NCBI GenBank assembly: GCA_024762925.1
Contig: JANTGM010000009.1
Location: 1-64,000, forward strand
Length of the DNA stretch: 64,000 nt
Direction: 5' to 3'
Source of the DNA: Kofleriaceae bacterium
GTDB taxonomy: Bacteria; Myxococcota_A; Polyangia; Haliangiales; Haliangiaceae
Numbering within the stretch: the stretch's first letter is position 1; each line of letters opens with the position of its first letter. Below the pieces are notes generated by a model. It saw only the letters and a list, made by a program, of their open reading frames with translations. It was not told where the DNA came from and made no database searches. Both the position numbers and the translations under genes were made by a program. Shown here one piece after another: positions 19,599 through 36,235 of the stretch.

Positions 19599-22500
19599 AT
19601 GGGGTGGCGCATATTCTTGGCAGTCGCGTGGTTTGGGCTCACAAGTGCCTGCAACGTAACGACCGGAGCTCCCGATGCCGGGGATGCTCCGATGAGCATT
19701 AGTGAAGCGATTGGACCAAACGGCGGAGAACTCAGGTTGGCTGGTGCTCGAGTGCAGTTGCCGGTAGGTGCGCTATCGAGCGAGTTGGTCTTGACGCTTC
19801 GGCGCGGGCTTGCGGTACCAGAGGGGCAAGAGGCGGTTTCAGAAGTATTCGTAATTGAGCCTGAGGGGCTAATCCTCGATGTTCCTGCGGTTGTCGAAGT
19901 CGTGGTCGCTGGAGATGATGTAGCGCTCTTTACCGTTGATGCTTTGGGAAGCAAGAACCTCAACGCCGAAACGAGAGAGGCGGGGCTGGAAGCCGAACTC
20001 GGAACGCTGGGCGTGATCTTTGGAGGCAAGAAGAACCCGTGCGGGCAGCTCCTTCAGGATGATGCCAACAACTGTGGCTCTTGCGGCCGCTCTTGCAATA
20101 ACAACAGTGGAATCGTGAGTTGTCGAGAGGGAAGCTGTGAGATTCGCTGCAACAATGGGCACGGCGACTGTGATGCTGATGCCGACACCGGTTGTGAGAT
20201 TGACCTGCGCGACGATGTCGACAACTGTGGAGGCTGTGGAGTTGTGTGCTCCGAGGATGCGATCTGTGAGCGGCAGGGTAATCGTTCCTTCTGCGCATGC
20301 ATCGAAGGCTTCGCTGGAGATGGCATCAACTGCGAAAAACTCCCAGACTGTCTAACAGGACATCGACGAGTAGAAGAAGCCTGCGTTGATATTGACGAGT
20401 GTGCTGAAGGGCTCGATTCTTGTGGCGACTCGGCGATCTGCGACAACACGGTGGGAGCATTCTCCTGTTCGTGCCCAGATGGATTTGAGCCTCTGCTTGG
20501 CACGTCTGGTTATGGCGATGGCGATGGCGGTTATGGCGGTGGCGATGGCGGTGGCGGTTATGGCGGTGGCGATGGCGGTTATGGCGGTGGCGATGGCGGT
20601 TATGGCGGTTATGGCGGTGGCGATGGCGGTGGCGGTTATGGCGGTGGCGATGGCGGTTATGGCGGTGGCGATGGCGGTTATGGCGGTGGCGATGGAAACG
20701 GTCCCAAGTTTGAGTGTGTCGATACGGATGAGTGTGCCATTGGTGCCAATAACTGCTCGAGTGATGCTGCGTGCCAGAATATTTCTGGTGGATTTCTATG
20801 CTCGTGCAAGCCGGGTTTTGAGGGCGACGGAGTAGATTGCCTCGACATCGACGAGTGTCATCTCGGAACAGATTCTTGTGCGACCGATGCCATCTGCACA
20901 AACACGCTAGGTAGCTTCACATGCGAGTGCAAGAGTGGCTATGTCGGAGATGGTTCGTTCTGTCAGGAGGTGGACGAGTGCGCGGGCAACGTCGCTGGAT
21001 GCGATGAGCACGCCACATGTGAGAATACTCCTGGTGCCTTCATTTGCTCATGCGTGGCGGGCTATGAGGGTAATGGAAACACCTGCTTGGATGTGGATGA
21101 GTGCGCACAAGGGATTGATACGTGTGATTCCAATGCGCAGTGCATAAATCGCGATGGCGGTTTTGACTGCACGTGTGAACCTGGCTACGAGGGAGACGGC
21201 CAGAGCTGCACAGACGTCGACGAGTGCGCCACCAAAGTCGCACAGTGCAGCCCAGATGCGCACTGTGAGAACGTTTCTGGCTCTTTTGCGTGTGAGTGCG
21301 ACTCTGGTTTCCGAGGAAATGGTTTTGCATGTGATGACGTTGACGAGTGTTTTGAAGAAAGTGATACATGTGCCGACGATGCAACGTGCAGCAATCGATC
21401 GGGAGGATTTGATTGTGAGTGCAACGCGGGATTTATTGGCGATGGGTTCGCTTGCCAAGATGTGGATGAATGCCAGGGAGACAATCTCTGCGCTGAGAAC
21501 GCGAGCTGTGAAAACACCGCAGGCGGCTACCAGTGTCAATGCAATCCCGGTTTCTCAGGAAACGGCGAGACATGCGACGACATCGATGAGTGTCAGGAGG
21601 TCGGTGTTTGCGGAGCTTTTGGTGTTTGTGAGAACGTCATTGGAAGCTTTGGCTGCGCGTGCGAATTGGGCTTCGAGCGCGTTGGTGAGCTGTGTGTGGA
21701 TATTGACGAGTGTCTGACCGAAGAGTGCGGTGAGCATGGGCACTGTGAGAACTCGCCAGGATCGTTTTCTTGCCAGTGTGACGAGGGTTTCGTTGGTGAC
21801 GGCATCACGTGCAACGACGCTGCAGAGCGCGTGATTCTCGTGAAAGCCGGTGGCGCACACACCTGCGCGCTCTTCGACAACAAGATGGTTCGCTGCTGGG
21901 GCTGGGGCATCTACGGCGAGCTTGGGTACGGCAACACAGACGATATTGGCGTCACGAACGAACCTGCGGATTCTCCCTACGTACAGCTTGGAGTGGCGGC
22001 GAGAGACTTGGACCTCGGCGTAACGCACACCTGCGCAATTCTTGAAGACGACACACTTCGGTGTTGGGGACGAAACTTCTATGGCTCGCTGGGCCTCGGC
22101 AATACCAATGATATTGGTGATACTGAACTTCCGAATTCTTCTGTGCTTGCTCTTGGCGGCAAGCGAGTGGCACAGGTTGCGGGCGGGGGGGAGCACACCT
22201 GTGCCCTGGATTTTGAAGGCAACGTGTTTTGCTGGGGGCTCGGTATCGATGGACAACTGGGGAATGGAAATGTGACACCCGTTGGCGATGACGAGGATCC
22301 TCTGTTCAGCGGATCAGTAAATCTCCTAGGATCAGCAACACAGGTTGTCGCAGGTCGAGACCACAGCTGCGCGCTTCTCGAAGATGGCACCGTTCAGTGT
22401 TGGGGGCGCGGGGAGCACAACCCAACAGGGTACGGGCACACCGAGAACATTGGCGATGATGAGCTACCGGTCGATGCTGGAGCGGTTGACGTTGGTGGCA

Positions 22501-25500
22501 CAGTACTTCAGCTCACCGCAGGCTGGTACCACACCTGCGCGCTGCTCGACGATGCGAGCGTTCGCTGTTGGGGCTATGGAAATCTAGGCGCTCTAGGATA
22601 TGCGAATCGCGACAGTGTTGGGGATGATGAATTGCCAGCTGATGTTGGAACGGTTGACGTTGGTGGCCCTGTGAAGCAGGTCGTTGCTGGCACCTACCAT
22701 ACGTGCGCGCTGCTCGAGAATGGCAATGTTCGCTGTTGGGGGTATGGAGGCGATGGTCAACTTGGCTACGGAAACACCAATACGATTGGCGACAATGAAC
22801 ATCCGTTTGAAGCTGGTGACGTTGACGTTGGTGGGCGAGTCACTCAGCTCACCGCTGGCTCGTTCCACACGTGCGCACTCTTGGACCGTGGCACCGTTCG
22901 CTGCTGGGGGTCGCGTGAGCACGGGCAGCTTTGTTATCAGGGGTCAGAAAATGTAGGAGACGATGAGCGGCCCGCGCGCATGGGAGATTGTCCCATTCTG
23001 GCCGCCGTGTGCCCTGGAGGGTTTCGACTCGGCGAAGATGGTGTGACATGCATGGATGTTGATGAGTGCGAACTTGGCGTGGATGCATGCAGTGCGCAGG
23101 CTACATGTAGCAATACCGAGGGCCGTTACGAGTGTGAATGCCATGCTGGGTATGAGGGCGACGGATTCGAGTGCGAAGACGTGGATGAGTGTGGAGATGA
23201 AACCGACGATTGCGCGGACTTCGCCACGTGTACGAATACGGATGGCGGGTTTTCGTGTGCATGCAGTGAGGGGTACTTTGGTGACGGAGTTAGCTGCGGA
23301 GGCGCATGTGCAACGTCAAACGATGAGTGCGATGAGAACGCCGAATGCACCGACGGTGATGGTACGTATAGCTGCGAGTGCCTGCCAGGGTTCGTTGGAG
23401 ACGGTTTCCTCTGCGCTGACATCGATGAATGTGCACTTGACCTCGATACATGTGATGTGAACGCTGGATGCGTGAATACACCAGGCGCTTACGAATGTGT
23501 ATGTCTTGAGACCTTCGTAGGCACCGGTGAAACATGCGCTTGTGAAGACGGCTACGAAGACGTCGGAGGGGCATGCGCCGACATCAACGAGTGCTCTCGA
23601 GGCCTAGATGATTGTGCGAATGATGAACTGTGCCTAAACACCGATGGCGGCTTTGAGTGCATTGGGGCAGGGGAGAATCCCGAGGACCCGGAGGAACCAC
23701 TCGTCTGCCCTGATGGCTACGTGCTCACGGGTGCCAGTGCACCAGGAGTCTCTCAGGGAACGATTGACGGCTTTGCCTCAGTGACCATGGAGCAGGGCGC
23801 GAACGATGCGATTGCCACCGCACAGCGGATTGTTGGCCCAACAACAGTGAGAGGAGCCGCCGATGCTGATAGCGATGCGATCGACATTTACCGCGTTCGC
23901 CTCCTTGCGGGGCAGGGAGCATCCCTCTTCATCAGTGCGGACGGCGTTCATAACGATCTAGAACTTCACTTGCACGACCTTCAAGGAGAACCAGTTCAGG
24001 GTTCTTCTGGCGGAGCAATTCGTTCACTCAGCACCTCGAGGTTTGAATCGGTGGTGGCAGAGGCCAGCGGGACCTACCTGGTTGTCGTACAGGCAAGCGC
24101 AGGAACTTCATCGTATTCGCTCGTTATCGGTGAGCCTCTTGGGGCAAGCGCTGCCCTCGGAAATATGGCAGAGCCCGAGTTCGTTCCCGGCGAGGTGATC
24201 GTGCGATTCGACCCTCGTGCCAACATGGCGCATAGCATCGCTACTGTCGCTCAATCGATGGGAACAAAGCAGGCGAGTGGCCAAAATGGTGGCATGACAC
24301 TCATGCGCCGGGCTGCGGGGCGCGTTGCGACGATGGCCACGGATCCGTCATCGGGGCTAAACATCCCCAACGATGCCGTGGCGATGGCAAAGACTTGGTC
24401 GCGGCGCTCTGATGTCCTAAGTGCATCTCCGAACTACCTCTACAAAGCGAGCGCAGTTCCAAACGATGAACACTTCGAAAGACAGTGGAACTACCCGGCG
24501 ATTCGACTTCCACAAGCGTGGGACAATGTTCCCGATGCAAGTGCCATCACTGTGGCTGTGATCGACACCGGAGTTATTCTGAATCACCCAGATCTCGATG
24601 ATGTTCTGGTTCCAGGATTCGATTTCATTCGCGATCCAAGCCGAGCACGCGATGGCGATGGCATCGACCCTGACGCGGATGATGTCGGGGATTCGGCAAG
24701 TCCTGGTGCGAGTTCCTATCATGGTACGCATGTTGCCGGGACGGTGTCTGCGGAGACGAACAATGGCATTGGTGTTGCGGGTGTCGCCCAGGGCGCTCGC
24801 ATCATGCCCCTCCGCGCTCTTGGTGCAGGAGGCGGAAGTAGCTATGACATCATGCAGTCGGTTCGCTTTGCTGCGGGCTTGCCAAACGATTCGGGAACGG
24901 TTCCGGATCGTCGTGCTGACGTTATTAATATGAGTCTTGGCGGCCCCGGACGAGATCCGGCCTTTGAAGCGCTAATTGCTGAAGTTCGTGCACTTGGTGT
25001 TGTGGTTGTTGCTGCTGCAGGTAACTCCAGCTCTTCTGTCTTGGCGTATCCAGCTTCGTATGAGGGAGTCATTTCGGTGAGCGCGACCGACGTTGAAAAT
25101 GCTCTGAGTTACTACTCAAACTTCGGTGGTGCGATTGACGTGGCGGCACCAGGTGGCGACGTACGCGTCGATCTCAATGGCGATGGTGAGGGCGACGGCA
25201 TTCTCTCTACGCTGGGTGCGGATACGAGTAGCGGAATTGCGCCTATCTACAAGCACTATCAAGGGACATCTATGGCTTCACCGCACATGGCTGGCGTTGT
25301 GGCACTGATGCGTGCTGCGAATATCGAACTTGGCCCAAGCGACATCGACGCTCTGTTGGCATCGGGTCTCATTACTACTGACCTTGGAGCCGCAGGGCGT
25401 GACGACAGCTTTGGACACGGCCTTATCAACGCGGAAGCGGCGGTGTTGCGTGCGCAAGAGTTTGTGGCGGGCGCGCCTCCTTCCGAGCAACCGTCACTGA

Positions 25501-28500
25501 TTGCTGAGCCATCCGCGATGAGTTTCCTCGACCCAGCCGAGACCAGCCAAAGCCTTGTTGTGCGAAACTCTGGCGAGGGGGCGATTGTCATTGATGCACC
25601 CACCGTCGACGCTCCATGGCTTCGCTTCGGTGCGGTCGAAATCATCGATGATGTTCACAGCTATCCGGTCGTGATCGACCGTGCGGGCCTTGAGGTTGGC
25701 AGTTACTCGGCGACCATTACGGTAACCTCTTCCGCCAACACGGCTTCGGTTCCCGTGGTCATGGAGGTTGCGGCGCCCCAGTGCATCGATGTTGATGAGT
25801 GTGAGCTGAACCTCGATGATTGTGCGAATCCAGAGCAAAACGGGGATTGTAGAAACCTGCCAGGCACGTTCGAGTGCTTCTGTTTCGAGGGGTACGAAGG
25901 AGATGGTAAGACTTGTTCTGATGTTGACGAGTGTGAAGCCGGCACTGACAACTGCAGCGATTTCGCGGTTTGCACGAATGCCGACCCGGGCTTCACGTGT
26001 GAGTGCCTCCCAGGGTTTGAAGGCGATGGAATCGTCTGTTCTCCCCCAAATGAGTGCGAACTCGGTTTCGACAACTGTGATGAGGATGCCACCTGCACTG
26101 ACACGTTCGAGGGCTTCGAGTGTTCCTGCAATGACGGCTATGCCGGAGATGGTGTTGAGTGTGAGGACATTGATGAGTGCGAAGACGGCAGTCACGCGTG
26201 TGATGCGAATGCCTTTTGCACCAACACCATCGGGGCCTACGAGTGCACCTGTTCTCCGCACTTCTCAGGGACTGGAGCAGGCTGTATCCCTGATGATGGC
26301 TGTCTGAGCCTTGAGAACTTCGAAGCCGATTGGCCGAATGCCACATGGCGAGAACCTCACGGTCTTGCGGTTGGCGGAATTGTTGCGGCGAGTTCTGCGA
26401 GAACGGGCAAGGTTGGCCTCACCCAGCTGGACGGAAGTGCTTTGCACACGCCCACTGCCCTCGGCGAGAGCCAAGATGCACTCGGAGCTTGGATACGCCT
26501 AGGGGATGTCGGAGCAATCGCGTCCCTTGTCTTCGGAAGTAGCGATGAAGGGGGCAGCTTCCTACAAGCGGATGGCAGCGGCGCGCTCGGTTTGTATCGA
26601 TGGACTCGAAGCGGGGAGCCGGCGCTCATCAACGAGGTCATAGCGCCTCTTCCAATTGGCGAGTGGCTCTATCTCGACGTTTTCTTTCACGGAGATGGTG
26701 ACGTTACCGCCAGTCTCTTTGGGCCCGATGGCGCTAGCACTGTTGCCGGCTTGAGCGGCTCTGTTGGAGAACTCTCAACGGGAAATGCGGGCCTTGAGTC
26801 CAACGGAGGAGCGGATCTCGATGGGGTGGTTGCATGCGCGTTCTTGCCACTGGTCGATGAATGCGAACTTGGTCTCGATGAGTGCGACGAAAACGCGACC
26901 TGCAATGATCTGCTAGGCGGCTATGAGTGTGTCTGCAACGCATCCTTTGTGGGAGATGGCTTCACATGCGAGGACGAGAATGAGTGCGAGACAGGCAATA
27001 ACAGCTGTAGCGCAAATGCGATTTGCACCAACACGATTGGGGCCTATGTATGTGCCTGTGCCGAGGGCTTTGAGGGAGATGGACTCATTTGCACAGACGT
27101 CAACGAGTGTGAACGCGGAACCTTCTCTTGCGACGATAACGCTACCTGCGTGAACACGTTGGGCGCCTATGAGTGTGCTTGCAACGCCGGCTATGAGGGG
27201 GATGGCAAGACGTGCTCCGATATTGATGAGTGTGCAATTGGCACCGATACCTGTGCCGACGATGCCGAGTGCATCAACATCCCCGGTAGCTACGATTGCT
27301 CGTGCCTTGAGGGTTTTGAAGGGAATGGCTTTGTTTGTGATGATGTTGATGAGTGCGCTCTTGGCCTCGACTCATGCCACGATGCAGCGACCTGCTTCAA
27401 CGCCGAGGGCAGCTACACATGCGAGTGCAACGGCGGCTGGGACGGCGATGGCTTTGAGTGTTTTGACATCGACGAGTGTGGGCTGGGTACAGATACCTGC
27501 GATCCACTGGCGGAGTGCTCCAATTCGCAAGGCTTCTTTACTTGTGTGTGCCCAGATGGCTTCACAGGAGATGGCTTCTCATGCATCGATGTTGATGAGT
27601 GCAGCGCCGGTCTCGACAACTGCGATTCGAATGCGGACTGCGACAACACCGCTGGCGAATTCACCTGCACTTGTAAGCAAGGCTTCCAAGGAAACGGCTT
27701 CAGCTGCGCCGATGTTGACGAATGCGCACTTGGTACCGATACATGCAGCGATGATGCGATTTGCCTCAACACCGACGGCGGGTTCGCTTGCGAGTGTGCG
27801 CCCGGCTTTGAAGGCACCGGGTTTGTCTGTAACGACATTGATGAATGCGCGCTTGGCACTGACACCTGCAGTGAGCGCGCGCTGTGTACCAATACAATCG
27901 GAGCGTTTGCATGCGATTGCCGGCAAGGCTTTGAAGGCGATGGCTTCACTTGCCTCGATGTCGATGAGTGCGCAACCGGCACCTTTGACTGCCCGCTGAA
28001 TTCCTCGTGCAGCAATACCGCTGGCGGCTTTGACTGCAACTGTCGCCGCGGCTATGACCTTGATGATGCCGGTGTATGCGTCGATATCGCGATCAAGGCA
28101 CAGAGCATTGGCGCGGGGGATGCGCATACCTGTGCGCTCATGAACGAAGGCGTCGTAAAGTGCTGGGGCTCTGGAAGCAACGGGCGAACTGGTCACGGCA
28201 ATACGCAAAACATTGGCGACGATGAAATCGCAGGAGACGCGCCCATCGTCAACATCGCAGAAGAGGAAGTGGTGCAGTTGGCAGTTGGTGGGGCCCACAA
28301 CTGTGTGCTTCTTGACGATGGGACGATTCGATGCTGGGGGCTTGGTCAACACGGTCGCCTAGGACACGCCGATAGCGAGGATGTTGGTGACGATGAAGTT
28401 CCTGCTGATGTAGGAAAAGTTCCGATGCCAGCAAGTGCGGTCGAGCTGGCCTTGGGACAAAAACACAGCTGCGCACTCCTTGAGGGAGGCGTCGTGAGTT

Positions 28501-29261
28501 GCTGGGGCGACAACTCCTTCGGGCAACTGGGTGCGGGCCTACAAGCCGATCCCATTCAGCGCAACGACGCTGTTGATGTTGGTGGTCCAGTGACAGCCAT
28601 TGCTGCCGGTGACTATCACACTTGTGCACTTCTCGATTCCGGCGAAGTTGTGTGTTGGGGGCTTGGCTCCTTCGGCCGGTTGGGCTACGGAAATAGCAAC
28701 GCAGTCGGCCTATTGAAGACCCCTGCGGACGCAGGCGCCGTCTCTTTGGGCGCCAGCGCAATTGCTTTGGCAGCCGGCGCAAACCACACATGCGCTTTGC
28801 TTGTTGGAGGCGAGCTTCGCTGCTGGGGGCGGGCGCTCTTTGGTGCGATCGGAACGGGCGTTCCAGGCAATGTTGGAGACGATGAAGTGCCAACGGCTGT
28901 TGCGCCAGTTGTGCTAGACGCAGCGCCAATCACGGTCACCGCTGGTAGCTCGCACACATGTGTAGCCTTTGCTGACGGTGAGGTGCAGTGCTTTGGGCTT
29001 GCGGCACAGGGGCAGCTTGGCTACGGAAACAAACTGAACATTGGTGACAATGAAGCTCCCAATCTTGCGGGCTTTGTTGATGTTGGCGGGCGGGTGCGTG
29101 AAATCGACGCCGGAGCCTTTCACACCTGTGTCGTCACGGACGTTTCCGAGGTGCGATGTTGGGGCAATGGAAGTCTTGGCCAACTTGGTTACGGTACGAC
29201 CTTCAATGTAGGCGATACGGAGTCTCCAGCTGATGTCGATGTCGTAAGGCTCGCGCCTTAA
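19599..29261 (+). CDS. Giant mosaic lipoprotein: EGF-like, RCC1 propellers and subtilisin-type protease
   Basis: 3220 aa, with a signal ending LTSAC (Cys18). Order: ZU5-like region (about 33-140); Cys-rich NCGSCG/NCGGCG modules; EGF-like modules 1-11 (to about 741) with a Gly/Asp/Tyr repeat inserted at 304-366; RCC1 propeller 1 (about 745-1135, seven HTCAL...CWG blades); EGF 12-16; PPC-like domain (about 1398-1514); S8 propeptide and protease (Asp1656, His1708, Asn1809, Ser1891 in GTSMASPH); a BACON/Ig-like domain (about 1964-2058); EGF 17-20; a LamG-like segment (about 2234-2418); EGF 21-30; RCC1 propeller 2 (about 2831-3220, seven blades). Most EGF modules carry the calcium-binding DxDEC start. 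Probably a surface adhesin-protease for prey, kin or substrate contact (inference). Confidence 0.93.
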   Translation: MGWRIFLAVAWFGLTSACNVTTGAPDAGDAPMSISEAIGPNGGELRLAGARVQLPVGALSSELVLTLRRGLAVPEGQEAVSEVFVIEPEGLILDVPAVVEVVVAGDDVALFTVDALGSKNLNAETREAGLEAELGTLGVIFGGKKNPCGQLLQDDANNCGSCGRSCNNNSGIVSCREGSCEIRCNNGHGDCDADADTGCEIDLRDDVDNCGGCGVVCSEDAICERQGNRSFCACIEGFAGDGINCEKLPDCLTGHRRVEEACVDIDECAEGLDSCGDSAICDNTVGAFSCSCPDGFEPLLGTSGYGDGDGGYGGGDGGGGYGGGDGGYGGGDGGYGGYGGGDGGGGYGGGDGGYGGGDGGYGGGDGNGPKFECVDTDECAIGANNCSSDAACQNISGGFLCSCKPGFEGDGVDCLDIDECHLGTDSCATDAICTNTLGSFTCECKSGYVGDGSFCQEVDECAGNVAGCDEHATCENTPGAFICSCVAGYEGNGNTCLDVDECAQGIDTCDSNAQCINRDGGFDCTCEPGYEGDGQSCTDVDECATKVAQCSPDAHCENVSGSFACECDSGFRGNGFACDDVDECFEESDTCADDATCSNRSGGFDCECNAGFIGDGFACQDVDECQGDNLCAENASCENTAGGYQCQCNPGFSGNGETCDDIDECQEVGVCGAFGVCENVIGSFGCACELGFERVGELCVDIDECLTEECGEHGHCENSPGSFSCQCDEGFVGDGITCNDAAERVILVKAGGAHTCALFDNKMVRCWGWGIYGELGYGNTDDIGVTNEPADSPYVQLGVAARDLDLGVTHTCAILEDDTLRCWGRNFYGSLGLGNTNDIGDTELPNSSVLALGGKRVAQVAGGGEHTCALDFEGNVFCWGLGIDGQLGNGNVTPVGDDEDPLFSGSVNLLGSATQVVAGRDHSCALLEDGTVQCWGRGEHNPTGYGHTENIGDDELPVDAGAVDVGGTVLQLTAGWYHTCALLDDASVRCWGYGNLGALGYANRDSVGDDELPADVGTVDVGGPVKQVVAGTYHTCALLENGNVRCWGYGGDGQLGYGNTNTIGDNEHPFEAGDVDVGGRVTQLTAGSFHTCALLDRGTVRCWGSREHGQLCYQGSENVGDDERPARMGDCPILAAVCPGGFRLGEDGVTCMDVDECELGVDACSAQATCSNTEGRYECECHAGYEGDGFECEDVDECGDETDDCADFATCTNTDGGFSCACSEGYFGDGVSCGGACATSNDECDENAECTDGDGTYSCECLPGFVGDGFLCADIDECALDLDTCDVNAGCVNTPGAYECVCLETFVGTGETCACEDGYEDVGGACADINECSRGLDDCANDELCLNTDGGFECIGAGENPEDPEEPLVCPDGYVLTGASAPGVSQGTIDGFASVTMEQGANDAIATAQRIVGPTTVRGAADADSDAIDIYRVRLLAGQGASLFISADGVHNDLELHLHDLQGEPVQGSSGGAIRSLSTSRFESVVAEASGTYLVVVQASAGTSSYSLVIGEPLGASAALGNMAEPEFVPGEVIVRFDPRANMAHSIATVAQSMGTKQASGQNGGMTLMRRAAGRVATMATDPSSGLNIPNDAVAMAKTWSRRSDVLSASPNYLYKASAVPNDEHFERQWNYPAIRLPQAWDNVPDASAITVAVIDTGVILNHPDLDDVLVPGFDFIRDPSRARDGDGIDPDADDVGDSASPGASSYHGTHVAGTVSAETNNGIGVAGVAQGARIMPLRALGAGGGSSYDIMQSVRFAAGLPNDSGTVPDRRADVINMSLGGPGRDPAFEALIAEVRALGVVVVAAAGNSSSSVLAYPASYEGVISVSATDVENALSYYSNFGGAIDVAAPGGDVRVDLNGDGEGDGILSTLGADTSSGIAPIYKHYQGTSMASPHMAGVVALMRAANIELGPSDIDALLASGLITTDLGAAGRDDSFGHGLINAEAAVLRAQEFVAGAPPSEQPSLIAEPSAMSFLDPAETSQSLVVRNSGEGAIVIDAPTVDAPWLRFGAVEIIDDVHSYPVVIDRAGLEVGSYSATITVTSSANTASVPVVMEVAAPQCIDVDECELNLDDCANPEQNGDCRNLPGTFECFCFEGYEGDGKTCSDVDECEAGTDNCSDFAVCTNADPGFTCECLPGFEGDGIVCSPPNECELGFDNCDEDATCTDTFEGFECSCNDGYAGDGVECEDIDECEDGSHACDANAFCTNTIGAYECTCSPHFSGTGAGCIPDDGCLSLENFEADWPNATWREPHGLAVGGIVAASSARTGKVGLTQLDGSALHTPTALGESQDALGAWIRLGDVGAIASLVFGSSDEGGSFLQADGSGALGLYRWTRSGEPALINEVIAPLPIGEWLYLDVFFHGDGDVTASLFGPDGASTVAGLSGSVGELSTGNAGLESNGGADLDGVVACAFLPLVDECELGLDECDENATCNDLLGGYECVCNASFVGDGFTCEDENECETGNNSCSANAICTNTIGAYVCACAEGFEGDGLICTDVNECERGTFSCDDNATCVNTLGAYECACNAGYEGDGKTCSDIDECAIGTDTCADDAECINIPGSYDCSCLEGFEGNGFVCDDVDECALGLDSCHDAATCFNAEGSYTCECNGGWDGDGFECFDIDECGLGTDTCDPLAECSNSQGFFTCVCPDGFTGDGFSCIDVDECSAGLDNCDSNADCDNTAGEFTCTCKQGFQGNGFSCADVDECALGTDTCSDDAICLNTDGGFACECAPGFEGTGFVCNDIDECALGTDTCSERALCTNTIGAFACDCRQGFEGDGFTCLDVDECATGTFDCPLNSSCSNTAGGFDCNCRRGYDLDDAGVCVDIAIKAQSIGAGDAHTCALMNEGVVKCWGSGSNGRTGHGNTQNIGDDEIAGDAPIVNIAEEEVVQLAVGGAHNCVLLDDGTIRCWGLGQHGRLGHADSEDVGDDEVPADVGKVPMPASAVELALGQKHSCALLEGGVVSCWGDNSFGQLGAGLQADPIQRNDAVDVGGPVTAIAAGDYHTCALLDSGEVVCWGLGSFGRLGYGNSNAVGLLKTPADAGAVSLGASAIALAAGANHTCALLVGGELRCWGRALFGAIGTGVPGNVGDDEVPTAVAPVVLDAAPITVTAGSSHTCVAFADGEVQCFGLAAQGQLGYGNKLNIGDNEAPNLAGFVDVGGRVREIDAGAFHTCVVTDVSEVRCWGNGSLGQLGYGTTFNVGDTESPADVDVVRLAP
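20508..20697 (+). repeat. In-frame minisatellite coding for GGYGGGD units
   Basis: About 190 bases of near-perfect repeats of a 21-base unit (GGCGGTTATGGCGGTGGCGA plus T) and shorter derivatives, all multiples of three. They encode Gly/Asp/Tyr only and sit inside the loop between the fifth and sixth Cys of the second EGF-like module. Repeat number is expected to vary by slippage without breaking the frame. Confidence 0.9.
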
Positions 29262-29307: not shown

Positions 29308-29769
29308 TTGGCGCTACGAACGATCAAGGGATTTCACGAAGACGAGATAGGCGATTGTGTCGTAGAGCTTTCCTGTGGCCACCAACAGCATCTCCGCCAC
29401 AAGCCTCCCTTTGAGGAGCGCATCGCCGTGACAACAGAGGTTGGTCGTCAGGCCCTTGTCGGAGAAGAACTCGACTGTCTTCTGTGCGACATGCCTACAT
29501 TTCCGGATGGACTATTCGCGTACAAGGCGACCAAGACGTTTGATGAGACGAGTGTCCCGAAAGGGCTCTTGAGCAACCACGCAACCAAGACCGGGACATG
29601 GGCTCGCATCGTCGTAGAGAAAGGCCGTTTGCTCTACACAATTGGCCAAGTGAGCTGGGTCTTGCGTCCTGGTGTGGATGGCATTGTTGAGCCAACCGTA
29701 CTGCACAAGGTTGCGCCACAAGGTGCGGTTCGCTTTCATGTTGAGTTCCTAAAAGCCAAAGAGCCATGA
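29308..29769 (+). CDS. DUF3565-DUF1971 fusion protein (tellurite-resistance-related)
   Basis: 153 aa. The N-terminal half (IKGFHEDE...ELSCGHQQHLRHKPPF...LDCLLCD) is a DUF3565 zinc-ribbon-like domain. The second half (PDGLFAYKATKTFDETSVPKGLLSNHATKTGTW to GIVEPTVLHKV...VRFHVEFL) is a DUF1971 cupin-like domain, often noted beside tehB. Both domains start close to their usual limits, forcing the TTG start at 29308. It is 46 bases behind the giant gene and has its own strong terminator. Biochemical role unknown. Confidence 0.85.
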   Translation: MALRTIKGFHEDEIGDCVVELSCGHQQHLRHKPPFEERIAVTTEVGRQALVGEELDCLLCDMPTFPDGLFAYKATKTFDETSVPKGLLSNHATKTGTWARIVVEKGRLLYTIGQVSWVLRPGVDGIVEPTVLHKVAPQGAVRFHVEFLKAKEP

Positions 29770-29842: not shown

Positions 29843-29880
29843 CGCACTAGACTGGGATCCAGAGGCATAGAACGCCCTAG
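29843..29880 (+). repeat. Family A repeat fragment (GGATCC module)
   Basis: GCACTAGACTGGGATCCAGA followed by GGCATAGAACGCCCTAG matches the complement of about 68-102 almost base for base, and the start of the copy at 10803. The fragment touches the stop codon of the thioredoxin-like gene. Confidence 0.6.
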
Positions 29881-30293
29881 TTCCTAGGCGGATAGACCTG
29901 CTCCTTGGTCCATTGCAGAAATCGAAGGAACATTGTCTTTGGGACCGAGCCTTTCAGCACGCGAAATCCTTTGCCATCTCGGCCCACGGCAACAACCGCA
30001 GGGATTGCGCGCACCCCCATGCGATGTGCGTATCTTTTGCCAGCAGTGGAGTCATAATCAAAGCGGCGAAACTCGACGGTCTCCAATGCTGCCTTCACTT
30101 CATCGTCGGAGAGAACGTTGGCTTCAAAGTGCTTACATGGGCCGCACCAGTCAGCGTAGAACTCAACAATTAGCACCTTCTTGGACGCATTCGCGTCATT
30201 GACGGCTGCATCCCATGACGTGCCCCCACAGGAAATGAGCATGCTGAGAGCAACAAGCAGAACCTGCCACCCGCGTCGATGCACCGTGATCAT
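29877..30293 (-). CDS. Thioredoxin-family lipoprotein
   Basis: 138 aa. Lipoprotein signal (LISC, Cys22) followed by a thioredoxin fold with active site WCGPC in VEFYADWCGPCKHFEANVL, and cis-Pro in RAIPAVV. Similar in build to DsbD C-terminal or thiol-disulfide carrier domains. Expected to be a periplasmic, membrane-anchored oxidoreductase. Divergent from the CDP-alcohol phosphatidyltransferase gene. Confidence 0.88.
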   Translation of the reverse strand: MITVHRRGWQVLLVALSMLISCGGTSWDAAVNDANASKKVLIVEFYADWCGPCKHFEANVLSDDEVKAALETVEFRRFDYDSTAGKRYAHRMGVRAIPAVVAVGRDGKGFRVLKGSVPKTMFLRFLQWTKEQVYPPRN

Positions 30294-33158: not shown

Positions 33159-33905
33159 ATGATTTTTCGATTGACCTGCGCGCTTGCGCTAACTGTTGCG
33201 ACCGTATCTCTAACCCAAGTCGTAGCAGTTCGCGACGCCAAGGCCTGAGGACTCTCTCCCCCTGTTGGTCCAACGGGGTTGCCCTATGAATGCGATGGAG
33301 ACTCTGGCTCAAAGTCTTGGCGCGCGGGTGTCAGCGGTGGCGCGTTCTCAACAACGATCGTTTTCGAGGGAGAGCAGAACGTCGACATCAAGCAGGCCAG
33401 TGTCAGTGCCACGCTCGGCTACCAGGTGTCAACGCGGTGGGGCCTTGTCGGTTCGGCCGGAGGAATCCTTGGAGGCACGGTAAATCACGGGACAGAAGGT
33501 GACATTGGCTCAGGCCTTGTCGCTTCTGTGAGTGGCACGTATCTGGCTCTGTACGAGTCTGCGAAGCTTCCCTTCATTCTTGGGAGCCTAACCATTGGTC
33601 ACTCGAGAACGACGGCCGTTTCCGACGATGCCATGCGTCACGATTGGATTGCCTACGATGTGCGCGCCGGAGTCATGGTGGGCAAGACAATCGGTGATCG
33701 ATTCGTTCCCTTTGCCAGTGCACGCGCCTTTGGTGGCCCTGTGGATTGGAAGCTCGGTGGCGAGGATGTCATTGGGAGCGACAAGTATCACTACACCGTT
33801 GGTCTTGGTGCGACGTACCGAATTCCTGGCAAGGTCGACTTCTTCGCTGAAGTACTGGGCCTAGGCGAGAACAGCGTGAGTCTTGGTGGTAGCGTCGCGT
33901 TCTAG
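33159..33905 (+). CDS. Outer-membrane beta-barrel protein with in-frame TGA (possible selenocysteine)
   Basis: Reading from ATG 33159, 29 codons give a good signal peptide (MIFRLTCALALTVATVSLTQ then VVAVRDAKA). Then TGA (33246-33248) interrupts the frame, and 218 further codons in the same frame encode a typical barrel (alternating hydrophobic strands, glycine-rich turns, final Phe in GGSVAF). Both halves need each other: the barrel has no other signal or ATG start (nearest is TTG 33279). A bulged hairpin follows the TGA at the distance seen in bacterial SECIS elements. Alternatives are a nonsense mutation or sequencing error. Ends in a CTAG shared with the convergent kinase gene. Confidence 0.65.
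33246..33278 (+). promoter_or_regulatory. SECIS-like hairpin after in-frame TGA
   Basis: CCCC (33259-33262), a bulged T (33263), GTTG/CAAC and GGGG (33275-33278) build an 8-bp stem with loop GTC; opening one pair gives loop GGTCC over three pairs and a bulged U. Counting from the U of UGA, loop G23 and U24 fall at the same positions as in E. coli fdhF, and the bulged U is at 18 rather than 17. Structure is read by eye, not folded by computer. Confidence 0.45.
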
Positions 33906-35857
33906 CGACTAGGCTCGTCTCCAAGTCCATTCAGAGTATCTCTTACACGAGCGAGTAATCGATGCGAGCTAAATGGCTTGGCGAGAAACGGGAAACTCGG
34001 CGCACTTGGAGCGTGAATCTGTGCTGCATAGGCAGACATGCAGAGAATTTTCATATTGTGCTGCGACCGAAGTTGAGCAGCGAGTTCGTGACCCTGCATG
34101 GCGGGTAGGCCCTCATCAGTGAGAAGCATGTCAAAGCGAGGCGTTCTCTCAACAAGTTCAAGAGCGTCTTCCCCATCTTTGGCACACGCAACTTGGTAGC
34201 CAGCTCGGGTGAGAGCTCGCTCGACGAAGGTGCGAACTTGCTCATGATCCTCTACAACGAGGATTCTGGCACCAACCCGGTTTTGATACGGCATCGTTGG
34301 AGCCTCTGAGAATTCTTCTTCCTCTAGTTCAGAGCAGGGGAGAGTAATTTCGAATGTTGTGCCGGCACCGAGTACAGACTCAACGCGAATTTCGCCGTTG
34401 TTGGAACGAACAATGCCATAGACCGTGGCAAGGCCAATGCCCGTGCCTCGGTCTGGCCCTTTCGTCGTGAAGAATGGATCAAAGATGCGACTCGCTGTTG
34501 CCTCATCCATGCCAGTGCCTGTGTCCGTCACGCGCAGGATTGCGACGACTTGCCCACCAGCTTCCTTGTGCGAATCAGCCGAGATGTGGAGGTCGCCACC
34601 ACCGGGCATTGCGTCGCGAGCGTTCAGTGCCAGATTTGTGAGTACCTGCTCTAGTTGGCCGCGGTCCATTAGCAGTAGTGGCAAATCGTCTGCGACAGAG
34701 ATGGTCACATGGATTCGTTCGGTGAGTGTGCGGCTGAGCATGCGCGCAACGCCTTCAATCTCTCGCCGCAGGTCAAGCATGTGTCGCGATGGCAGCTGCC
34801 GTTGCCCAAATCCGAGAAGCTGTCGTGTGAGGCTCTTACTGCTCTTGATTGCCTGCCAGAGTTCTTCTGATGCATAGCGAATGTCTTCGTTCGCGTGCTC
34901 GGGGTTCTCTTCTACCCAATCGGAGATTTCGCCCGACGCACCCATGAAGACAACAAGCAGGTTGTTGAAGTCATGGGCAATTCCTGCCGCCAGTTGCCCA
35001 AGTGCTTCCATCTTCTCCGAGGCTCGCAATCGTTTGGCGGTGCTCTCTCGCTCTTCTTGCATCCGCACTCGCTCTGATAAGTCGCGAATCACTTCAACAC
35101 ACGCAGCCTTGCCGTTGAGAGTTGTCTCCCCACGGGAAACCTCGACCAGGAACTTCGCGCCATCGCGTCGAATGGCCTCATAGATCTTTGCGGTTGGACC
35201 CTCAGCTTGAATTTGCAGCGCGTGCTCGGTTTCCTCAAGCAGCGAAGAACGAGAAAGTCCCTCGAGCGATTCCACAGGGTACCCATACATGCGTGCTGCA
35301 GCATCGTTGGCGGTTCGGACTTGTCCACTTGCGCTATCGACGACGAGAATTGCGTCAGAAGATGCGTGGAAGAGAGCTCGGTGCTGCTGCTCGCTGGCCC
35401 GCAGTTGATCGACCAGCTCTCGCTCGTGTCGGTTTTGTCTCGTCTTGGCAACAGCATTGCGAGCCTTGAACACCAAGGTGCTCAATTGAAAGGGCTTGGG
35501 AACATAGTCAAAGGCGCCTGCCTCAACCGCTTCAATGGCTGAGTCCATTGAAGGGTACCCCGTGATCAGAATGAACTCTTGGTTGGGGCATTGCTGGCGC
35601 AGGCGACGGATGGTGGCCAATCCCGATCCATCGGGAAGGTTCTTGTCAACGATGACCAAATCGAACGGGCCGTCCTCGTTGAACCGCTGGATGCCCTGAG
35701 CTACCGAGCTTGCGCGGCAAATGTCGACTTCAAGGATGGCTTCGATCGCATCGACGATGGCGGGCTCATCATCAATGACCAGCACCTGCGCGTCGGCTAG
35801 GTAGGCAAGTCCATGCTCAAGTAGGTTTGGCGCGTTATGAGAGCTATCGCTCGACAT
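33902..35857 (-). CDS. Hybrid histidine kinase: REC-PAS-HisKA-HATPase-REC
   Basis: 651 aa, no membrane segment. An N-terminal receiver (VLVIDDEPAIV, phospho-Asp in LVIVDKNLPDG, Lys in YVPKPF) leads into a PAS domain (about 155-280), an H-box [11 protein letters not shown]-box NLALNARDAMP, G-boxes DTGTGMD and GTGIGLATVYGIV, and a C-terminal receiver (LVVEDHEQV, LLTDEGLP, LAKPFS). Cytoplasmic phosphorelay hub with no cognate regulator next to it. Its 5' side borders the CTCTTCCGG repeat array. Confidence 0.92.
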   Translation of the reverse strand: MSSDSSHNAPNLLEHGLAYLADAQVLVIDDEPAIVDAIEAILEVDICRASSVAQGIQRFNEDGPFDLVIVDKNLPDGSGLATIRRLRQQCPNQEFILITGYPSMDSAIEAVEAGAFDYVPKPFQLSTLVFKARNAVAKTRQNRHERELVDQLRASEQQHRALFHASSDAILVVDSASGQVRTANDAAARMYGYPVESLEGLSRSSLLEETEHALQIQAEGPTAKIYEAIRRDGAKFLVEVSRGETTLNGKAACVEVIRDLSERVRMQEERESTAKRLRASEKMEALGQLAAGIAHDFNNLLVVFMGASGEISDWVEENPEHANEDIRYASEELWQAIKSSKSLTRQLLGFGQRQLPSRHMLDLRREIEGVARMLSRTLTERIHVTISVADDLPLLLMDRGQLEQVLTNLALNARDAMPGGGDLHISADSHKEAGGQVVAILRVTDTGTGMDEATASRIFDPFFTTKGPDRGTGIGLATVYGIVRSNNGEIRVESVLGAGTTFEITLPCSELEEEEFSEAPTMPYQNRVGARILVVEDHEQVRTFVERALTRAGYQVACAKDGEDALELVERTPRFDMLLTDEGLPAMQGHELAAQLRSQHNMKILCMSAYAAQIHAPSAPSFPFLAKPFSSHRLLARVRDTLNGLGDEPSR

Positions 35858-35961
35858 CGTCGTTATAGGGAAATCGGACAGTATGCTGAAGTTCTGTAGT
35901 GGTGGAGTACACTTTCTGCGACATGCTTTGCCCGCGTATTTCTCCGTTTCTTGGGTAGTTG

Positions 35962-36235
35962 GCTCTTCCGGCTCTTCCGGACGGCTCTTCCGGACGGTTC
36001 TTCCGGCTCTTCCGGCTCTTCCGGCTCTTCCGGCTCTTCCGGCTCTTCCGGACGGTTCTTCCGGCTCTTCCAGCTCTTCCGGGCTCTTCCGGGCCGAGGG
36101 TTGTTCTCACGGCTGAGCGGCTCCATGTCCGCCGCTCTTCCGGACCGGGCTCTTCCGGACCGGGCTCTTCCAGGCCGGGCTCTTCCGGACCGAGGGTTGC
36201 CGCTCTTCCGGACCGAGGGTTGTTCTCACGGCTGA
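35962..36235. repeat. Tandem array of GCTCTTCCGG-type units
   Basis: Around 25 imperfect copies of the 9-base unit CTCTTCCGG, alone or spaced by GACGG, GACCGGG or similar to make 9-, 14- and 16-base periods. Nearly every unit carries GCTCTTC or GTTCTTC. A 40-base segment (CCGAGGGTTGTTCTCACGGC and onward to TCCATGTCCGCC) occurs twice within and just after it, at 36094-36133 and 36213-36254. It lies about 105 bases upstream of the REC-PAS-kinase gene. Confidence 0.85.

Follow-up and report, generated by a model that had tools for sequence, protein, structure and literature searches.

A TGA codon in the window (the whole stretch of 64,000 nucleotides that was analysed) is almost certainly decoded as selenocysteine (Sec), as judged from the corresponding codons of related genomes. 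The codon lies in one frame between a signal peptide and a 218-codon segment encoding an outer-membrane barrel, and the sequence and coordinates that the initial annotation gave for these parts were correct on re-reading (Table 1). The gene would give rise to one 248-residue selenoprotein, in which SelB and tRNA-Sec would read the UGA as Sec, directed by a hairpin that starts at nucleotide 15 from the U of UGA. The Sec translocon would export the chain, and signal peptidase I would cut it after AKA, so that Sec would become the first residue of the barrel protein, on a flexible periplasmic tail. Sec1 and a nearby conserved cysteine (at positions 12–16, or at position 3 in other classes) could then form a reversible selenenylsulfide, or a metal site with two ligands, facing the periplasm. 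The gene probably represents a family present throughout the Myxococcota, in which an exported Sec forms the free N-terminus of an outer-membrane barrel and is, together with the nearby cysteine, redox- or metal-reactive on the periplasmic face.

Table 1 Parts of the barrel gene, with positions in the window
Feature	Position	Strand	Description	Basis
Signal peptide MIFRLTCALALTVATVSLTQVVAVRDAKA	33159–33245	+	29 residues, ending in AKA; signal peptidase I type	Ala at −3 and −1
UGA codon, almost certainly read as Sec	33246–33248	+	Predicted residue +1 of the mature protein	Codons of homologues and co-occurrence with Sec machinery
SECIS hairpin	33260–33278	+	33260–33267 pairs with 33271–33278; loop 33268–33270 (GUC)	
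Cys16 of the mature protein	33291–33293	+	Proposed partner of Sec1	Cys conserved nearby in relatives
Predicted mature protein, 219 residues	33246–33902	+	Sec1, flexible N-terminus, outer-membrane beta-barrel, last residue Phe	AlphaFold2 and Foldseek
Real stop codon TAG	33903–33905	+		Direct reading of the sequence

When 290 genomes of the class (Polyangia) were searched at the protein level, 73 proved to contain a homologue, and the codon beside the signal-peptide cleavage site was read at each locus, a few loci cut by a contig end being left out. The initial annotation had proposed to establish whether relatives carry Cys, Sec (TGA) or a sense codon at this site; they carry TGA or Cys, and the hairpin is kept in the TGA forms. 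Right after the AxA of the signal peptide, the codon is TGA in 50 class loci, TGC in 19, TGT in four, and TCA (Ser) in one, and neither TAA nor TAG occurs there among the class homologues read. A phylum-wide search provided 15 resolvable members from outside the class, 13 of which have TGA at the same place, and the distant L198 and L200 have neither Sec nor Cys. The DNA pattern of the SECIS element was also run over one genome per species, 84,980 species altogether, and returned 46 loci, each with a signal peptide before it and the family N-terminus in frame after it. Forty-five of these loci are titled Myxococcota or Deltaproteobacteria, and one (L146) is titled uncultured bacterium.

The initial annotation considered it quite possible that the TGA had arisen by nonsense mutation or reflected a base error. 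In a single genome, a one-base change of a Cys codon (TGC or TGT) to TGA would look alike; however, a sequencing error is excluded because the TGA recurs in some 60 independent genomes. The 50 class loci and 13 outside loci with this TGA have long conserved frames after it, and TAA or TAG never take its place, which leaves a negligible probability that the codon results from a nonsense mutation, pseudogene formation, or an error. One genome (G228) contains, beside an intact TGA copy (L024), a paralogue (L059) with TCA (Ser) in place of TGA and a still intact hairpin; this is apparently a recent loss of Sec.

The genome from which the window originates encodes the machinery for Sec insertion. 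The initial annotation had named selA, selB, selC, and selD as genes to look for, and selA (580 bits), selB (332 bits, cut-off 242), selD (374 bits), and a tRNA-Sec with the anticodon TCA are all present. Within the class, tRNA-Sec or selB was found in the genomes of 49 of the 50 TGA loci as opposed to one of the 23 Cys loci (Fisher p = 2e-16). The exceptional TGA locus lies in a genome (G205) that has selA (470 bits), and the exceptional Cys locus shares its genome (G179) with a TGA paralogue. In the 22 genomes with only Cys forms, tRNA-Sec, selB, and selA are all absent. Outside the class, selA is present in 13 of 13 TGA genomes; the genome of L198 has selA and that of L200 lacks it. No TGA genome checked is entirely without genes of the Sec machinery, and the absence of single components from some of them is put down to incomplete assemblies. 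A tRNA-Sec was counted at 59 bits or more, as shorter and weaker hits of 47–58 bits resemble tRNA-Ser cross-matches; this threshold was chosen after viewing the list, and selA and selB were therefore used as independent checks. The selD gene of the source genome (L055, contig 125, 12235–13164) has an in-frame TGA of its own, in the context EHGG-U-AAKLSP, followed by GTTG-AGTC-CAAC, the arms and GU loop of which are nearly those of the barrel-gene hairpin.

The reading of UGA as a residue other than Sec, by tryptophan insertion or by a suppressor, is highly improbable. Nothing specific speaks in its favour, and the aligned residue in homologues is Cys, never Trp. The tRNA-Sec (TCA), selA, selB, and selD of the genome and the covarying hairpin with a GU loop argue against it, as does the presence of Cys, within the class, wherever the machinery is absent. 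In the tree, the root of which is not known, the Cys forms make up two clades (19 and four rows) nested among the Sec forms. This suggests that Sec was replaced by Cys twice, in lineages that lost the machinery. The interchange of Sec and Cys, like the decoding of UGA, is shown by comparison of the relatives.

The UGA could alternatively be a true stop, with the first frame encoding a leader peptide and the barrel being produced by re-initiation. Translation might restart at a TTG at 33279, and in a few relatives a start codon follows soon after the TGA; however, 26 of the 50 class TGA loci have no ATG, GTG, or TTG within 25 codons past it. Furthermore, a barrel without a signal peptide would not be exportable, and the Cys homologues are single unbroken frames. 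The conservation of the protein from the first codon past TGA, and the use of TGA as the only stop at the site, also speak against re-initiation, to which we assign a very small probability.

The hairpin that follows the Sec codon, CCCUGUUG-GUC-CAACGGGG, has a folding energy of −10.9 kcal/mol. Counted from the U of UGA, stem columns 15–22 pair with columns 26–33 in eight pairs, and nucleotides 23–25 form the loop. The count confirms the initial placement of the loop G and U at nucleotides 23 and 24. By contrast, the U at 33263, initially described as bulged, is better read as part of a U-G wobble within an unbroken stem of eight base pairs. Column 17 is a C-G pair in 47 of 47 sequences, and column 18 is paired in all 47; because the latter is mostly C or G in the relatives, there is no conserved bulged U. 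The SECIS of E. coli fdhF has its loop G and U at the same nucleotides, 23–24 after UGA, and its GGU codon is likewise placed. However, the fdhF-type bulged U is absent here, and the stem is an unbroken 7–8 base pairs with a loop of three nucleotides. An fdhF-type SECIS with a bulged U at nucleotide 17 was rejected by the alignment of the 47 sequences.

Folding of the single sequence is no better than chance, with z = +0.70 for a 61-nucleotide stretch and −1.3 for the hairpin. The hairpin rises far above chance only by comparison, in its pairing and covariation relative to shuffled and slid versions. The 47 sequences used for the comparison were found through protein similarity and hence were not picked for the hairpin. 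In this set, 95.2% of stem cells are paired, 26 are doubly changed, and five of the eight pairs have changes on both sides. The covariation score is 0.258, compared with 0.086 for shuffled alignments, and none of 500 shuffles reaches any of the observed values; slid versions of the hairpin are at most 54% paired. Both partners of the pair 18–30 are third codon positions, and all 47 sequences form this pair, with five pair types, whereas the shuffle mean is 27.6 and the maximum in 100,000 shuffles is 40; since shuffles ignore relatedness, the slid controls and the amino-acid-changing pairs weigh more. Compensatory changes that alter both amino acids convert V/T to I/M (L083), G/P (L029 and L065), or A/A (L062), and the compensatory pairs outside the class encode A/V or A/A, with T/V in L196. 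The codon that contains the GU of the loop (33267–33269) is GGT in 61 of 62 sequences, whereas GGT makes up 11% of the other Gly codons of these genes. On this comparative evidence, the hairpin is a SECIS element. Its loop of three nucleotides (GUC), eight base pairs, distance of 19 nucleotides from UGA to the loop, and folding energy lie within the published bSECIS constraints (quoted in PMC13188914), and covariation adds to these values. A covariance model recovers the TGA sites of the family, among them that in the absent 5′ half of a gene divided between two contigs, and a search with it found no other genes with the same SECIS below E = 0.001. Since most of these sites had served to train the model, the informative outcomes are the divided gene and the lack of further hits.

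The frame before the TGA is strongly hydrophobic in 50 of 50 TGA homologues, with a mean maximum hydropathy of 2.39, compared with −0.13 and 0.20 in the other frames. An AxA-like end precedes the TGA in 48 of the 50, with Ala at position −3 in 46 and at −1 in 48, and mostly Glu or Arg at −2. A lipoprotein with Sec or Cys in the lipobox (L-[ASTV]-[GAS]-C) was ruled out by the residues at −3, −2, and −1. Ala at −3 and −1 together with a mostly charged −2 residue fits signal peptidase I rather than a lipobox. Cleavage is predicted to occur exactly before Sec, which should therefore become residue 1 of the mature protein.

The structure predicted by AlphaFold2 from a 41-row alignment is a barrel with a mean pLDDT of 90.2 and a pTM of 0.84, in which residues 1–13 are disordered. 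Foldseek retrieved only generic outer-membrane barrels with a TM of about 0.5, and the protein has no match in Pfam, NCBIfam (E up to 1), or PDB sequences. The C-terminal residue is Phe, likewise in many relatives. With a signal peptide, a barrel fold, and a C-terminal aromatic residue, the protein is predicted from its sequence to be an outer-membrane beta-barrel. The barrel gene is present as a single copy in the 6.8-Mb source genome.

A second Cys is located at positions 12–16 of the mature protein in 49 of the 50 class Sec forms and in all Cys forms; the exception (L081) has Cys at position 3. Outside the class, the second Cys is mostly at position 3, forming a Sec-Gly-Cys (UGC) motif. L198 and L200, which have lost residue 1, contain no Cys in the N-terminal stretch inspected. 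The segment PVGPTG between Sec1 and the second Cys is present in all Sec forms and was lost by most Cys forms, whereas the Cys pair stayed. The loss of PVGPTG together with Sec indicates that RNA constrains the linker and protein constrains the two chalcogen residues. Probably, and jointly with the reading of the family as exported Sec-barrels, the SECIS occupies linker codons that are otherwise little constrained, and the protein sequence that they encode is for the most part retained only as long as Sec is in use.

Our best guess, with about even chances, is that Sec1 and the second Cys form a reversible Se-S redox pair on the periplasmic tail. In the Archangium/Myxococcaceae lineage, a gene for a di-haem cytochrome c peroxidase (CCP_MauG, PF03150) lipoprotein is located downstream of the Sec-barrel gene at eight loci from Myxococcia (L106, L107, L118, L125, L133, L138, L142, and L148). 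This neighbour is a weak hint of peroxide or redox chemistry, and it does not adjoin the barrel gene in the other lineages examined. The clustering of neighbourhoods was noisy because of shadow open reading frames in the GC-rich DNA, and only the di-haem peroxidase stood out.

It is possible, with a lower probability, that a soft metal ion is bound by the second Cys and by Sec1, the latter through its selenolate and free alpha-amine, and that the barrel handles metal at the outer membrane. The two soft ligands of such a site would lie near each other on a flexible tail. The second Cys may lie before or after the hairpin, at position 3 or 12–16, which implies that nearness matters and exact spacing does not. 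However, no metal-related gene was seen adjoining the barrel gene, and the peroxidase loci of Myxococcia point to peroxide or redox chemistry. We consider it improbable that Sec1, instead of being a reversible redox site, forms a one-way bond with a structural or anchoring role. The tail is disordered on its own in the prediction, and a bond could order it; however, structural bonds rarely need Sec, and the retention of Sec over the tree suggests selection for reactivity.

The initial annotation regarded Sec at the mature N-terminus of a barrel protein as new. Sec in an outer-membrane barrel is already known (PMC13188914); however, no record was found of the family from the window, or of an exported protein whose mature form is predicted to begin with Sec. 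The family is absent from the 119 selenoprotein families in Table 1 of PMC13188914 (2026), and it is not included by name among the new deep-Sep families (PMC12013277). In the literature searched, subscription papers, preprints, and supplements aside, nothing relevant was found on selenoproteins in myxobacteria. The GSU2204 family CXXCH protein (NF041027) is a selenoprotein with an outer-membrane barrel of the MtrB/PioB type (PMC13188914). Like the protein from the window, it is an outer-membrane beta-barrel selenoprotein; however, its chain contains CXXCH, whereas the window encodes a 219-residue barrel with Sec at residue 1 and a nearby Cys, and without a match to NF041027. The TonB-dependent receptor of the FCYXU motif type (NF049945) is a computationally predicted outer-membrane selenoprotein (PMC13188914; PMC12013277). 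It belongs to a large receptor family with a CxxU motif, which the protein from the window does not match, although both are outer-membrane proteins. Selenoproteins with the UGC motif comprise the UGC-containing TlpA family and DUF1573 (PMC13188914). The same Sec-Gly-Cys starts most members of the barrel family outside the class; however, the known UGC-motif proteins have thioredoxin-like or DUF1573 domains, whereas the present family is a barrel without a Pfam match.

The results add a selenoprotein family that extends across several classes of Myxococcota. Gene finders are likely to call the Sec-barrel as a headless barrel or to miss it. With Sec as the first residue of the mature, exported chain, a free amine and a selenol would be brought together. 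The family also provides an unusually clean data set for SECIS elements, with covariation at third codon positions, compensation that alters amino acids, and a motif that decays once Sec has given way to Cys. The loci found with the SECIS pattern include those of the cultured members Polyangium fumosum DSM 14668, Minicystis rosea DSM 24000, Enhygromyxa salina, and Plesiocystis pacifica SIR-1, which makes direct testing possible.

The barrel gene of the window stands alone, between an upstream Fe-S_biosyn/rhodanese gene and a downstream response-regulator/kinase gene, both on the opposite strand, and no functional pointer was found in this neighbourhood. Upstream of the kinase gene, positions 35844–36235 are of low complexity, with frames reading GSSGSSGSS or EEPEEPEEP. 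A fusion of DUF3565 and DUF1971 at 29308–29766 adjoins a thioredoxin gene at 29880–30293. Positions 19599–29261 encode a predicted 3220-residue protein, the translation of which contains many EGF-like repeats, RCC1-like repeats, and an apparent protease region of the subtilisin type.
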